From: a virus
Direction: 5' to 3' (one strand)
Length of the DNA stretch: 20,518 bases
Virus record (IMG/VR): IMGVR_UViG_3300030104_005160
Location: 4,477 to 24,994 of that record
Below, in pieces: positions 3,529 to 12,800 of this stretch; the first letter of the stretch is position 1, and the number at the start of each line of letters is the position of its first letter. The notes under the pieces were generated by a model. The model saw nothing but the letters and a program-made list of their open reading frames with translations, had not been told where the DNA came from and did not search any database. A program made the translations under genes and the position numbers.

Positions 3529-5862
3529 ATGGACGATCTAGCTTTATATCAAAGGCAACTCAACAGAGAACTAGGCCAAAGGACCGAGGCTAGAGACAGA
3601 TTAAAAAGGAATACATTAAAGGCAGAACAAAAAGGATACGCTAGTTCTGCTGTGTATAACCAAAAGATACTAAAGGATTCAACAGCAAAGATAGGTAACA
3701 GATTAGAGAAACGATTACATCATTTAAGAAGGGGTAATGCTGGAGTTGATGCAGTAATAATTGATAAGCATTTAAAAGATACAGATAAAAATGTAATAGC
3801 TCTATTAACTATGAAAGTAGCAATGGATGTATTAGGTAAAGAAAGCAAACCTAAGTTTGTTGAATTATCTATTGCAATAGGTAGAGCAATTGAAACAGAA
3901 TTAAGACTTAATCACTATCACAAGGAAGACCCTGAATTATATAGACGTGTAGAGGCTGGATTCCACCAAAGCACAGGGACAAGGCAAAAGGATACTGTAT
4001 TTAAAATTAGATTTAACGCCGAGGGATTAGAGTGGCATAGATGGAGTAATTCAACAGCACACAAAATAGGTGCCTGGTGCTTAGATGCTATTGGAGAAGA
4101 AACAGGGTGGTTAACCAAAGAAACTATTGTTGTAGGTAAAAGAAGTAAGAGAAGTATTATTAGATATAGTCAAGAATTTTTAAATTTAAAAGCTAATTTA
4201 TTAGAGCAAGCCGAGGGCTTGGCTTTCTTAGCTTGGCCGATGATATGTAAACCATTGATATGGAGCAATGAAGATCTAGGTGGATACATAACAGAAGCTA
4301 TCCATCGTATGCACCCTTTAGTTAGACAGAAAGGAGGATTGCAGCATATTAAACAGGGGGATATTCCCATCCAAACACTTAACAACATTAACCATGTTGC
4401 TTTTAGGATTAATCAACCTGTATTTCAAGTGCTTGACTGGGCTTTAACCACTAAACAAACTATTGGTAAGTTCAGAGTAGAAGAAGCAAAACCAGACCCT
4501 AATCCACCATCACCAGACTGCACACCAGAGCAGCTCAAAGCCTATAAAAAAGATAAAAGGCGCATTAAAGACAACAATGCTCAAATCGAACAAAAGAATT
4601 GGAGATCTATTGAACTACATTATGTAGCCAATAAGTTTAAGGATGAAAAAGCTATCTATTTTCCCCACTCGTTCGGGTACCGAGGACGGCTTTATTCTCA
4701 AACTACTTCTTTATCACCTCAAGGGACTGATACAGAAAAGGCACTTCTTTATTTTGTCGATGAAGGTCCAGTCAATGAATATTGGCTTGCATGGACCGTA
4801 GCAACAACTAAGGGTCTGGATAAGAAAACTCACCAAGAAAGGGTTAATTGGACTAGAGAAAACATTGAAAGAATCACAGCCATAGGGTCTGATCCTATTG
4901 GTGCATATGATCTTTGGGAAGATGCTGATGAGCCGTGGTGTCATCTTGCAGCCTGTATAGAGTATTTTTTATGCTGTATCAGTTGCACTAAGAGCCGAAG
5001 CGGTTTGCCCTGTGGACAGGACGCTACTGGAAGCGGGATTCAACATCTATCAGCTATGACTCTAGACGCTGAAAGCGCTTTAAAGTGCAATGTTTTACCA
5101 ACACAAATACCCTCTGATTGCTACAAAATAGTAGCTGATAATAGTCTTCAGTATATCTCTGATCAATCAGTCCATAAATACATCACACGGAAAATAACCA
5201 AAAAGGTTTGCATGTGCATACCTTACGGACTGACTAAAACAAGCGCTCGTACATATATACGAGAGGCATTAAAAGAAACATCAATCGACTTAAGCGTAAA
5301 GGGACGATTGACTGAGATTACTGAAGCTATTTACGACAAGTCAGTACCAGAAATATTTGCTGGTCCTGTCGAGGTTATGAAATGGATTCAAAAGGCAGCA
5401 AAAGAAATCATTAGTCAAACAGACACCATCACATGGACTACTGCTTCAGGGTTCAATGTTGTTCAAAACCTAAGACTAAGTTTATCTAGCCGAGTCCAAA
5501 CACGATTAATGGGAGCTGTTGTTAGTTGCCAGGTTGGTGAACGATGGGGTGGTCCTGATGTCAAACATCATGTCTCAGCATTAGCGCCAAATCTGACACA
5601 CAGCAACGATAGCTCGCTAATACACCTGACTTTTGCTTACTGGGATGACAAGCCTTTTCAATCAATACACGATTGCATACTTGTTAGGTCTTGTGATATG
5701 GATGAAGCTAAAGATGCAATTCGTATGCACTTTGTAGAAATCTATAAAGCACCAGTATTAGAAGATTGGGCCAATCAAGTAGGAGTCGAAGTTCCACAAG
5801 GTCTTATAAAAAACACCTTGGATTTGGAAAAAGTAAACGATTCTGATTATTTCTTTTGTTAG
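3529..5862 (+). CDS. T7-type single-subunit DNA-directed RNA polymerase
   Basis: This 777-residue protein (T7 gp1 is 883) transcribes the middle and late phage genes. The catalytic signature is complete. The first metal Asp is D498 in GQDATGSGIQHL. R554, K558 and Y566 in RKITKKVCMCIPYG have exactly the spacing of T7 R627, K631 and Y639. The second metal Asp is D715 in SIHDC. The block FPHSFGYRGRLYSQ matches the T7 FPYN-x-DWRGRVY region, and APNLTHSNDSS follows the probable promoter-specificity loop. The N-terminal domain is Lys/Arg-rich and helical, and is shorter than in T7. The first half is markedly more AT-rich than the second. The gene lies behind promoter P2 and the 170-aa protein. Its promoters in this genome are not evident to me. 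Confidence 0.97.
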   Translation: MDDLALYQRQLNRELGQRTEARDRLKRNTLKAEQKGYASSAVYNQKILKDSTAKIGNRLEKRLHHLRRGNAGVDAVIIDKHLKDTDKNVIALLTMKVAMDVLGKESKPKFVELSIAIGRAIETELRLNHYHKEDPELYRRVEAGFHQSTGTRQKDTVFKIRFNAEGLEWHRWSNSTAHKIGAWCLDAIGEETGWLTKETIVVGKRSKRSIIRYSQEFLNLKANLLEQAEGLAFLAWPMICKPLIWSNEDLGGYITEAIHRMHPLVRQKGGLQHIKQGDIPIQTLNNINHVAFRINQPVFQVLDWALTTKQTIGKFRVEEAKPDPNPPSPDCTPEQLKAYKKDKRRIKDNNAQIEQKNWRSIELHYVANKFKDEKAIYFPHSFGYRGRLYSQTTSLSPQGTDTEKALLYFVDEGPVNEYWLAWTVATTKGLDKKTHQERVNWTRENIERITAIGSDPIGAYDLWEDADEPWCHLAACIEYFLCCISCTKSRSGLPCGQDATGSGIQHLSAMTLDAESALKCNVLPTQIPSDCYKIVADNSLQYISDQSVHKYITRKITKKVCMCIPYGLTKTSARTYIREALKETSIDLSVKGRLTEITEAIYDKSVPEIFAGPVEVMKWIQKAAKEIISQTDTITWTTASGFNVVQNLRLSLSSRVQTRLMGAVVSCQVGERWGGPDVKHHVSALAPNLTHSNDSSLIHLTFAYWDDKPFQSIHDCILVRSCDMDEAKDAIRMHFVEIYKAPVLEDWANQVGVEVPQGLIKNTLDLEKVNDSDYFFC

Positions 5863-5874
5863 CTTTTATAAACA

Positions 5875-6027
5875 ATGAAGCCACCAGCCAATGCAACTTT
5901 GATCGAAAGATTGCAATTTTATGTTCGTACTGAGCAAAATGAAAAGGCAAAAGCCTTAGCTAGTATCGCTGACTACTTAGAAGAATGTTTCTGTTGGGAT
6001 ATTGACTTCCATCTTCCACATTTATAA
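5875..6027 (+). CDS. small hypothetical protein (50 aa)
   Basis: A micro-gene with ATG at 5875-5877 and TAA at 6025-6027. It encodes a predominantly helical 50-residue protein starting MKPPANATLIERL and ending FHLPHL. Two Cys lie close together (ECFCWD) but there is no second pair to complete a zinc site. It begins 12 bases after the RNA polymerase stop and has codon use like its neighbours, which supports real coding. Its 3' end overlaps the presumed regulatory region for the winged-helix gene. Function is unknown; by position it could be co-expressed with the polymerase. Confidence 0.6.
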   Translation: MKPPANATLIERLQFYVRTEQNEKAKALASIADYLEECFCWDIDFHLPHL

Positions 6028-6067
6028 GGGTAAAATATTAATATGTGAAGGTCCATTCCATTAAGGA
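6002..6067 (+). promoter_or_regulatory. possible regulatory region for the winged-helix/integrase pair
   Basis: Upstream of the winged-helix ATG (6083) lie a possible -10 TAAAAT (6031-6036) with a weak TTCCAT (6007-6012) 18 bases before it. There is also a perfect palindrome ATATTAATAT (6035-6044) and a GTCC (6051-6054) / GGAC (6064-6067) inverted pair. The palindrome overlapping a candidate -10 would suit autorepression by the downstream winged-helix protein. The promoter match is poor, so this is tentative. Confidence 0.3.
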
Positions 6068-6082
6068 CAATCCAGAGCTAAG

Positions 6083-6436
6083 ATGACAGCAAGAGTCACC
6101 AATGACAGCATGTTGCGAGCTTACTGGCTTGTTGAAGCACTACGCTCAACTGGAGAGCGTGAGTTTCCGATGCAACTAGCCTCAACCTTCTTCTATATTG
6201 CGGCCCATGAAGGCTGTTTACAGGAGGATGTGCAAGAGGCTACTGCTCAAACGTCTAGCTCTGTTTCCCGTAATGTGACTTGGCTTGGCCCAAGGCATAG
6301 AACAGGAAAGGATGGATTGAAGTTGGTCTATAGGGAGAGAGCAAAAGAAGATTATAAAAAGTATCGACTTTACTTAACCCCTAAAGGTCAGACTTTCAAA
6401 AATCTGATTGAACAACAACTCACTCGCAAAATCTAA
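6083..6436 (+). CDS. MarR-like winged-helix DNA-binding protein
   Basis: This 117-residue protein has the look of a MarR-type winged helix. A long N-terminal helix is followed by helices around LASTFFYIAAHEGCLQEDVQ (33-52). The probable recognition helix is about residues 54-68 (TAQTSSSVSRNVTWL). A two-stranded wing (GLKLVYRERAKEDYKKYRLYLTPKGQ, 78-103) ends in the LYLTPKG word typical of the MarR wing strand, and a C-terminal helix follows. It lies two bases upstream of the integrase start, so the two are co-transcribed. A site-specific recombinase paired with a small winged-helix regulator suggests control of integration or of early transcription, but repressor function is inferred from fold and context only. 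The sequence shows no ligand-binding or dimerisation residues that would confirm MarR family membership. Confidence 0.7.
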   Translation: MTARVTNDSMLRAYWLVEALRSTGEREFPMQLASTFFYIAAHEGCLQEDVQEATAQTSSSVSRNVTWLGPRHRTGKDGLKLVYRERAKEDYKKYRLYLTPKGQTFKNLIEQQLTRKI

Positions 6437-6438
6437 TT

Positions 6439-7290
6439 ATGCCGAGGACAGCCCAACTGAAACTCGACGGAATGTTCGAGTATTCAGTAAAGAACCACTT
6501 CAGAAAGCAAAAGTCTTTCAGAACCACAATGTCGAGAATCCATAGGATCTTACATTCTGCTTCACCATCAACTCCAGTCAGGAAGCTGGGGAGCCGTGGT
6601 TGGTGGATAAATGTACAAAACCACATTTTAGAAACCGAGCAAATCGCAAACGGGACAATCAATCGCACGTTATCGGTTTGTAGTAAGGCAATGAATTTCA
6701 CGCTCGATTGTCAGTTGCATGAAACCAAGTGTCCAAAATATCCAAGGCTTCCAGAACCAGAGTCAAGAATGTTCTACTTCCCTAAAGAAGGAGTAGAAAA
6801 GCTTAAGTTCTATGCAGTGGATATCTACAACGATCAATGCCTTGCAGAAGCAATTGAGTTTTCTGCTTATACAGGATTAAGGCAAGGGGAATTACTAAAA
6901 CTCAAGCCTGAAGATATTGATTGGAATCTTGGATGTATATGGGTAGGAGGAAAAAAACACCCAACAAAAGCTAACAATGTAAGACAGGTTGATATTCATC
7001 CAAAGCTAGAAGAAATGATCCGTAATCGATTAAGCAATGAGTATCTCTTTGGGGATGACTGGCTTAACAAAGATCATCTTTATAGATGTTTCGTAAAGGT
7101 TAGAAGATTAGCTGGCTTTAATGAAGATTATGTATGGCACTGTTTAAGACATAGCTATGGAACATGGTTGGGAGAAGTGACACACCCAAGACAGATCATG
7201 GCGTTAATGGGTCACAAAAATATTGAAACAACTTTAAAGTATTGCAAAATAACAGATAAGGCCCGTAAAGAGGCTGTTCTGAGTATATGA
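6439..7290 (+). CDS. int: tyrosine recombinase / phage integrase
   Basis: This 283-residue tyrosine recombinase would catalyse site-specific integration of the phage genome. The full catalytic set is visible: R148 in AYTGLRQGELLKL, a beta-hairpin Lys in GGKKHPTK (172, 173 or 177), H234 and R237 in HCLRHSYGTWL, H259 in LMGHKNIETTLKY and the nucleophile Y268. The N-terminal 110 residues hold the core-binding helices and a basic start. No separate arm-binding domain is obvious, and the length is at the short end for phage integrases. It sits two bases after the winged-helix gene and about 120 bases before a tRNA-Leu-like segment, the standard int-att arrangement. P-SSP7-type cyanopodoviruses are known to carry such an integrase and a tRNA-Leu match, though stable lysogeny in culture has been hard to show. 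Confidence 0.95.
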   Translation: MPRTAQLKLDGMFEYSVKNHFRKQKSFRTTMSRIHRILHSASPSTPVRKLGSRGWWINVQNHILETEQIANGTINRTLSVCSKAMNFTLDCQLHETKCPKYPRLPEPESRMFYFPKEGVEKLKFYAVDIYNDQCLAEAIEFSAYTGLRQGELLKLKPEDIDWNLGCIWVGGKKHPTKANNVRQVDIHPKLEEMIRNRLSNEYLFGDDWLNKDHLYRCFVKVRRLAGFNEDYVWHCLRHSYGTWLGEVTHPRQIMALMGHKNIETTLKYCKITDKARKEAVLSI

Positions 7291-7297
7291 AAAGTGT

Positions 7298-7402
7298 CAT
7301 CGGACTCGTCATATACCCTAATCCGATGCGTCTAACACCATCACTAAATGGGCTACTTTCTCTGTTAAAGTGGTAAACCAACTGTATCTCAATTGCTGAG
7401 AT
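7298..7402. repeat. two inverted repeats between int and the att core
   Basis: CATCGGA (7298-7304) pairs with TCCGATG (7322-7328) across 17 bases, and ATCTCA (7386-7391) pairs with TGAGAT (7397-7402) across 5 bases. Neither is followed by a T run, so they are unlikely to be terminators. Their place between int and the tRNA-like core makes accessory integrase-binding sites or an RNA structure possible. Confidence 0.4.
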
Positions 7403-7408
7403 CCCTTT

Positions 7409-7450
7409 GCCCACCTGGCGGAATTGGTAGACGCGCTGGTTTTAGGTTCC
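7409..7450 (+). other. attP: attP-like core: 5' half of tRNA-Leu(UAG)
   Basis: The segment starting GCCCACC reads as the 5' half of a tRNA-Leu. It has a 7-base acceptor strand (7409-7415), TG at positions 8-9, D-stem GCG (7418-7420) and CGC (7432-7434) around the loop GAATTGGTAGA, and the anticodon-stem strand CTGGT. The loop TTTAGGT (7441-7447) has anticodon TAG at 7443-7445. After about 7450 the sequence no longer pairs with the anticodon stem, and no variable arm, T-arm or acceptor 3' strand follows, so it is not a functional tRNA gene. A partial tRNA downstream of an integrase is the usual form of a phage attachment site. The crossover probably lies near the anticodon loop. Confidence 0.85.
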
Positions 7451-7489
7451 GACGAGTTTTTGTAGCATATAGACAATTGAATCCTTACT

Positions 7490-7513
7490 AAGCGGCCCAG
7501 AAGCCGCTTTTTT
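7490..7513 (+). terminator. rho-independent terminator after int/att
   Basis: A perfect 7-bp stem AAGCGGC (7490-7496) / GCCGCTT (7503-7509) with a 6-base loop runs into a stretch of six T (7508-7513). It separates the regulator/integrase unit from the replication genes that begin at 7554. Confidence 0.88.
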
Positions 7514-7553
7514 ATTGGCGTTTCATCAATCCCATTAAGGGTAAATAAACCAA

Positions 7554-12442: not shown

Positions 12443-12800
12443 ACAATGTAGGAAGTGTGGAAAGGTTAAAAAAGAAACAGACTTTCCATACTTCTCTACT
12501 TCAAAAGCTGGTCGGAAGAATACATGTAAAACATGCTCAAACGAATTAGCAAAAGTAAGAGCGAAACTAAGAAAACAAAATCCTGAACCACCATCAGGAA
12601 GTTGCCCCGCTTGCGGAAGATATACAACCTCTTGGGTATTAGATCATTGCCACAACGATGACACTTTCCGAGGGTATATATGCAATTCTTGTAATCTTGG
12701 ATTTGGAAAATTTAATGATGATCCAGAAATACTAAAGCGCTCAATCGATTACCTCATCAACTCCACTAAGACAGATGAAACCATTAAAAATAGTTCTTGA
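12363..12800 (+). CDS. endonuclease VII-like HNH protein with zinc-binding motifs
   Basis: This protein of up to 145 residues resembles recombination endonuclease VII, a junction-resolving nuclease. An N-terminal zinc ribbon has C29, C32 (QCRKCGK) and C55, C58 (CKTC). The HNH core has C81 and C84 (SCPACGR), then VLDHCH at 93-97 and RGYICNSCN at 103-111, with C107 and C110 completing the second zinc site. The ATG at 12363 gives an 80-base overlap with the polymerase. Homologues usually begin just before the first Cys pair, so a TTG at 12414 may be the true start. It overlaps the exonuclease by 26 bases. Many T7-like cyanophages carry a similar gene between polymerase and exonuclease. Its role overlaps with that of endonuclease I. 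Confidence 0.85.
   Translation: MFKQLCILDANWIAIQKLGRTGQRPTKQCRKCGKVKKETDFPYFSTSKAGRKNTCKTCSNELAKVRAKLRKQNPEPPSGSCPACGRYTTSWVLDHCHNDDTFRGYICNSCNLGFGKFNDDPEILKRSIDYLINSTKTDETIKNSS

Follow-up and report, generated by a model that had tools for sequence, protein, structure and literature searches.

An integrase cassette with a MarR-family gene and a tRNA-Leu attachment site in an uncultured T7-like cyanopodovirus

T7-like cyanophages are known to carry an integrase gene (int) and an attP site matching tRNA-Leu; integration is transient, stable lysogens are absent and no repressor was identified (PMC8776855). P-SSP7 and S-TIP37 integrate at tRNA-Leu, and both int and attP are required in S-TIP37 (PMC8776855). 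Intact prophages have been stated to be absent from the hosts of these phages (PMC8776855). The MarR protein of P-SSP7 (gp0.7, pMarR) was studied by Lambrecht et al. (2022), who found it to be a dimer that binds DNA with multiple footprints (PMC9692554). It activates an alternative promoter of the host rne gene in a heterologous E. coli reporter, and the rne result is based on this reporter and on in vitro binding (PMC9692554). In a two-hybrid test, pMarR contacted host RNA polymerase alpha and not the phage RNA polymerase (RNAP) (PMC9692554). MarR proteins usually repress (introduction of PMC9692554), and the idea of a MarR repressor has been published for LUZ100-type phages, where it is credited to Boeckman 2022 (PMC10134795).

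We analyzed a stretch of 20,518 nucleotides (the window), which comprises bases 4477–24994 of a 24,994-base IMG/VR record. Judged from its genes, this DNA comes from the contig of a T7-like cyanopodovirus; it encodes RNAP, SSB, endonuclease, primase/helicase, DNA polymerase, exonuclease, ribonucleotide reductase, portal and scaffold, with those past the primase/helicase assigned by eye or from their similarity to S-TIP28 or P-SSP7 rather than by family search. Sequences resembling hli and psbA lie near its end. Among the early genes, positions 882–1841 encode an ArdC-like anti-restriction protein (ArdcN and MPTase-PolyVal), a 49% identical relative of which is located near marR-int on a freshwater picocyanobacterial contig (L282, 397–1338). 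Ahead of the ArdC-like gene lies a 38-bp imperfect palindrome, TATTAATCCAATTTGA-attgca-TCAAGTGGGATTAATA (816–853), the strongest palindrome found in the window.

An earlier note on this DNA had described a module of regulator, integrase and att site. The module stood: marR, int, the tRNA-Leu half and the terminator are all where it had placed them, and the winged-helix ORF (117 aa) and the recombinase ORF (283 aa) are indeed two bases apart. The cassette is a further case of the kind known from P-SSP7, S-TIP37, SS120-1 and S-TIP28. The features of the region are as follows.

2888–2940, + strand: candidate control region of an RNAP-marR-int operon, a dyad over a sigma-70-like site (tentative)
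3529–5862, + strand: T7-like RNA polymerase gene, directly 5' of the module (PF00940, E 4e-66; PHROG 414)
5875–6027, + strand: ORF50 (50 aa), a small conserved gene between RNAP and marR with no assigned function (PHROG 24878)
6035–6044, no strand: palindrome ATATTAATAT, present, not above chance
6056–6071, + strand: TTCCATTAAGGACAAT, a variant of the gene-start motif of the phage clade, before marR
6083–6436, + strand: marR, winged-helix regulator by PHROG, profile and fold, likely orthologue of P-SSP7 gp0.7/pMarR
6439–7290, + strand: int, tyrosine recombinase (Phage_integrase PF00589, E 2e-19), predicted active site intact
7409–7447, + strand: attP core, bases 1–39 of tRNA-Leu(UAG), by identity to host tRNA genes
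7490–7515, + strand: intrinsic terminator behind attP, stem 7490–7509 plus T run, by scan and by conserved position in relatives

By its sequence and predicted structure, the regulator belongs to the MarR family, with a winged-helix fold and flanking dimerisation helices. It matched PHROG 9665 ("transcriptional regulator") at E 1e-34, and a 13-member profile searched against the PDB returned MarR-family structures as all of its top matches (2eth, E 1.7e-8). The AlphaFold model reached a pLDDT of 91, and its best Foldseek matches were MepR, SlyA, MexR and MarR. The Pfam MarR_2 match was weak (17.2 bits against a cut-off of 27); the MarR-like winged-helix protein of the earlier note was borne out by the other three lines of evidence. 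The chain is shorter than a typical MarR and has a single C-terminal helix. It is a homologue of P-SSP7 gp0.7 (36% identity) and, by its position next to int, likely an orthologue. The functional residues S66, R67 and G106 of pMarR correspond to S62, R63 and G102 here and are invariant in 13 homologues. Dimeric DNA binding, shown for the P-SSP7 orthologue, may extend to the window protein, in which R63 and G102 are conserved. Since pMarR binds DNA, the DNA-binding test proposed earlier has in effect been passed by the orthologue, with a host gene as target; the targets of the window protein may differ, as the two share only 36% identity.

In Int, the catalytic pattern of tyrosine recombinases (R..K..HxxR..H/W..Y) is complete, in agreement with the earlier description of a complete recombinase: R148, K177, H234, R237, H259 and Y268 are all present and are invariant in an alignment of 12 homologues. 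The single window sequence used as the Int query recovered one locus only; an alignment was used as the query for the wider homologue search.

The proposed attP-like tRNA-Leu half was confirmed by 39 bases of identity from base 1. Positions 7409–7447 are identical to bases 1–39 of tRNA-Leu(TAG) in Prochlorococcus AG-311-D23, AG-436-J02 and several Synechococcus, and flanking identity lengthens the match to 40–41 bases in RCC307 and BS30m-G31. An integrase followed by a perfect match, here of 39 bp, to part of a cyanobacterial tRNA-Leu gene is the hallmark of the int/attP module of T7-like cyanophages. A 28-base tRNA pattern was too short, matching many bacteria, and only extended matches in cyanobacteria were used. 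Half a gene should escape ARAGORN, and indeed this program detected no complete tRNA anywhere in the window. The tRNA-Leu identity ends at the end of the anticodon loop (TTTAGGT, 7441–7447), suggesting that crossover probably occurs within this loop. The terminator predicted after the tRNA half was also recovered by the scan, and the layout of int, tRNA 5' half and terminator is that of most relatives (half in 65 of 96, terminator in 47 of the 65). Judged from the sequences of the isolates inspected, which are part of all isolates, the att half is of the TAA type in P-SSP7 and P-SSP3, the CAA type in SS120-1 and the CAG type in S-TIP28, S-CBP1, S-CBP2, S-TIP37 and S-SRP01; among the sequences inspected, uncultured contigs were the sole source of the TAG type.

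We compared the cassette with those of described phages. P-SSP7, likewise a T7-like cyanopodovirus, has marR directly before int, conserved S66, R67 and G106, and a tRNA-Leu 5' half as att; however, its cassette precedes the RNAP gene, whereas that of the window follows RNAP and ORF50, and its att is of the tRNA-Leu(UAA) type instead of tRNA-Leu(UAG). S-TIP28 and SS120-1 share the order RNAP - ORF50 - marR - int - SSB, with MarR 56% identical and Int 50% and 44% identical, respectively, but differ in att isoacceptor type (CAG and CAA). S-TIP37 has a MarR-like gene, int and a tRNA-Leu att, and its integration was shown experimentally (PMC8776855); unlike in the window, the cassette is upstream of RNAP, and its MarR is 28% identical and annotated only by the note "DNA-binding domain". 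Syn5 and S-CBP42 have the same site, RNAP - ORF50 - int, with integrases 37% and 50% identical, but no marR. Phages of the type of Pseudomonas phage LUZ100 and Rhizobium phage RHEph01 also have a MarR-like regulator and a tyrosine integrase beside a T7-like RNAP; their hosts differ, their MarR is about 34% identical, and in LUZ100 marR and int are separated by a complete tRNA-Leu.

The earlier note had asked whether the two genes are always inherited together. In phages this nearly held: marR was directly upstream of 88 of the 91 distinct integrases with enough upstream sequence, the exceptions being S-CBP42, Syn5 and L094, and int was right behind marR in all 30 viral contigs found by marR. 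These counts cover the homologues reachable with the alignments used. Among cyanopodovirus isolates listed by RNAP, 10 had marR and int, two had int only, none had marR only and 17 had neither at the thresholds used, counted regardless of relatedness among the isolates. Two gene orders were seen for the pair, RNAP-ORF50-marR-int-SSB (window) and marR-int-RNAP (P-SSP7). In picocyanobacterial genomes, joint inheritance did not hold, as MarR was mostly found there without a window-type integrase: the MarR family of the window was present in 33 of 400 genomes, the window-type integrase at E 1e-30 in five, and both side by side at those thresholds in one (G362); in three further genomes (G346, G051 and G148), marR lies near a weaker integrase. 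The occurrence of MarR independently of integrases, which had been named as evidence against a paired switch, was therefore observed in host genomes and not in phages.

Several loci in these host genomes deserve separate mention. Orphan chromosomal marR genes with no integrase nearby were found at G261:C2:179110-179466, G375:C1:672695-673048 and G079:C1:2077497-2077844 (L287, L297, L298); two of the three are 83% and 77% identical to P-SSP7 pMarR, and in both a gene of ~180–200 aa with no assigned function comes next. G029:C3 (L291, L279, L292) is a T7-like genome of ~42 kb in which marR (31250–31567, +) is divergent from RNAP (28419–30809, -), a layout that would suit a real switch; its sole recombinase-like ORF (33926–34492) is short, with a very weak match. 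G038:C1:920223-925874 and G127:C1:530340-535189 (L285, L286) combine a distant T7-like RNAP (24–26%) with an integrase (32–34%), and are possibly other integrative elements; that of G038 lies near tmRNA. T7-like RNAPs (PF00940) were present in 29 of the 400 genomes; most of them, 22–29% identical to cyanophage RNAP, were not counted as relatives.

The attL/attR junctions at tRNA-Leu that had been suggested as a check were found. Two of the 400 picocyanobacterial genomes (G281 and G362) contain true T7-like cyanophage prophages at tRNA-Leu, with att junctions and with empty sites in relatives. The first, G281, belongs to the genus of G326, which holds Synechococcus sp. BS30m-G31. Its 45,514-base prophage (G281:C12:2526-48124; L278, L289, L290) is inserted at tRNA-Leu(CAG), with both ends on one contig of 52,265 bases. 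The break in the phage genome falls precisely at attP, and the map reads SSB - endonuclease - primase/helicase - ... - capsid - ... - terminase - early genes - RNAP - ORF50 - int - complete tRNA-Leu(CAG). At the other end, the host genes murA and argD lie outside, followed by the tRNA 5' half, a terminator and SSB. A D-loop variant (AATCTGG) in the 5' half at attR is shared with L052 and L075, two contigs of free phages. In six relatives, the alignment of the murA flank continues into one tRNA-Leu(CAG) (the tRNA scan covered three of them); on the opposite side, the flank resembles host DNA and is not syntenic in those six. The main genes are full-length open frames (the one break, in ribonucleotide reductase, stems from the edge of a stretch read), and the prophage is apparently intact. 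It has the gene order of the window with no marR between ORF50 and int, and no marR was found elsewhere in the G281 genome at E 1e-8. One early protein resembles the ribbon-helix-helix domain RHH_5 (E 1e-4, below cut-off). ORF50 is retained in this prophage as in Syn5 and S-CBP42, all without marR.

The second genome, G362, belongs to the genus of Prochlorococcus AG-311-D23. Its prophage is of the P-SSP7 type, carries marR-int and psbA, and is inserted at tRNA-Leu(TAA), split over C8:20768-42998 and C25:3889-19196 (L313, L328, L277). C8 holds attL (pyrC - tRNA-Leu(TAA) 5' half - hairpin with T run - RNAP - SSB - ... - psbA - capsid) and C25 holds attR (terminase - talC - early genes - marR - int - complete tRNA-Leu(TAA) - short host ORF - trpA), where the short host ORF looks like ndhL. 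In all nine relatives compared, the two flanks join at a single tRNA-Leu with a 43-base overlap, and the flank alignment ends exactly at the core end in 16 of 25 genus-mates. These junctions bear out both the interpretation of the att site and the geometry expected of the window. Both prophages are evidence of integration and not of stable lysogeny. The regulator is present in the G362 prophage and missing from that of G281, contrary to what a classical switch demands; the absence from G281 indicates that MarR is dispensable for integration and for the integrated state being found.

We also searched for control sites. The palindrome at 6035–6044, which the earlier note had laid over a possible -10, exists; however, perfect 10-bp palindromes occur in the window at chance frequency (22 observed against 23.4 expected in shuffles), ~26% of shuffles of 5863–6082 hold one, the scan for sigma-70 sites found nothing on the + strand in its vicinity, and no conserved palindrome was seen at this position in relatives. 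We therefore rejected it as operator or -10. No shared palindromic operator was found upstream of RNAP or marR in relatives. Copies of CCATTAAGG at 6058 and 7532 were likewise rejected as MarR sites, being part of a directional gene-start motif that is spread over the genomes of this clade and not MarR-specific. A forward-oriented motif of about TTCCACTMARSCAA precedes many genes of the cyanophage clade (L001, L002, L016, L021, L029, L042) and occurs in the window at 6056–6071 and 12761–12776; it is a putative promoter or translation-start signal. At early promoters, the operator search gave no conserved palindrome and one non-conserved dyad, GTGCAttaTGTTCActtTGAACAgtTGCAC (2888–2917), which overlaps the sigma-70-like TTGCAC-17-TATATT (2912–2940). 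Promoter matches in this region are not above chance, and the control region is tentative because the dyad is not conserved in relatives. Nevertheless, the dyad is a better candidate operator than the palindrome at 6035–6044.

Taken together, we consider it probable that the locus is an integration cassette of a T7-like cyanopodovirus, in which MarR tunes early infection or integration rather than serving as a required lysogeny repressor. The anatomy and the att identity were observed directly, and the same geometry was seen in two real prophages. From its position, the RNAP-marR-int region would be transcribed by host RNA polymerase early in infection, with marR and int presumably co-transcribed. 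Int would recombine attP with the identical stretch of host tRNA-Leu(UAG), probably in the anticodon loop. Beside int, the phage would thereby contribute a fresh tRNA 5' half that makes up a full tRNA with the host 3' half (attR), and the old host promoter and 5' half would then face the phage terminator and, next to it, the replication genes (attL). The terminator, conserved in position, may insulate these genes from the host tRNA promoter. Int would integrate a small share of genomes at tRNA-Leu, as in S-TIP37 and P-SSP7 (PMC8776855). MarR would be a dimeric transcription factor that works via host RNA polymerase at promoters of the host, the phage or both. Among its possible roles, we rank a host target or a general early-phase role highest and a local controller of integration second, and consider a silencing repressor improbable; these roles are not exclusive and our confidences in them overlap.

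The first alternative is that MarR is purely a host-takeover factor, for example raising host RNase E, which stands beside int by chance, the linkage reflecting an early-gene position. The biochemistry of P-SSP7 pMarR (PMC9692554) and the marR copies in host chromosomes agree with it, but marR would then be expected in cyanopodoviruses lacking int too, and none of the 17 such isolates has it. We regard this explanation as possible but doubtful.

MarR could instead control the transcription of int, or how integration is balanced against excision, with no silencing of lytic genes. The 88/91 pairing also fits a regulator dedicated to integration, and the tight linkage to int in two gene orders looks as if the pair moves as a unit. 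However, host chromosomes hold orphan marR genes, three integrases work or persist without marR, and pMarR of P-SSP7 acts on host rne. A purely local role is rather unlikely.

The earlier note had gone further, reading the locus as a small lysogeny switch with MarR as the missing repressor. The module itself stands, but a switch is not established, given the G281 prophage without marR. In the model of LUZ100 and Boeckman, MarR would bind operators at an early or RNAP promoter, shut off the phage RNAP and silence the integrated phage. This would suit the usual action of MarR proteins (PMC9692554), the adjacency of marR to int and its absence from isolates without int, the finding that MarR and int are cotranscribed in LUZ100 (PMC10134795), the marR-int pair of the G362 prophage, and the dyad over a promoter-like site before the RNAP operon. 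Nevertheless, Syn5, S-CBP42 and L094 have int without marR, as does the integrated G281 prophage; the orthologue activates a host gene (PMC9692554); S-TIP37, which has a MarR homologue, yields no stable lysogens (PMC8776855); and the dyad is unconserved. A repressor role is unlikely, though it may still apply. We give slightly less weight to the broader view that T7-like cyanophages are truly temperate in nature, in which both prophages would be stable lysogens, MarR would aid silencing in marR-bearing lineages and other regulators, such as the RHH_5-like early protein of G281, would do so elsewhere. Finally, a decaying relic that has lost integration would fit relatives without stable lysogens in culture (PMC8776855), but is very improbable, as all reading frames and catalytic residues are intact, the att identity is exact and relatives are found integrated.

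The int/attP at tRNA-Leu (PMC8776855), the MarR repressor hypothesis (PMC10134795) and pMarR as a regulator of host rne (PMC9692554) were already known. The new elements are the linking of the "no repressor" phages to their own marR genes, the counts of marR-int co-inheritance, the tRNA-Leu(UAG) att type of the window contig, and the two integrated prophages, of which one has no marR, together with their empty sites in relatives. The clean att junctions of these prophages contrast with the published absence of intact prophages from the hosts (PMC8776855); we found no later report of an intact T7-like prophage in these hosts in the open-access literature. Because marR lies beside int in phages already tested (S-TIP37 and P-SSP7), an orthologue has a known host target and prophages exist with and without marR, the repressor question is directly testable with the genetics already available for S-TIP37 (REEP). 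The answer bears on whether dormancy is open to the T7-like phages that infect the most abundant photosynthetic organisms.
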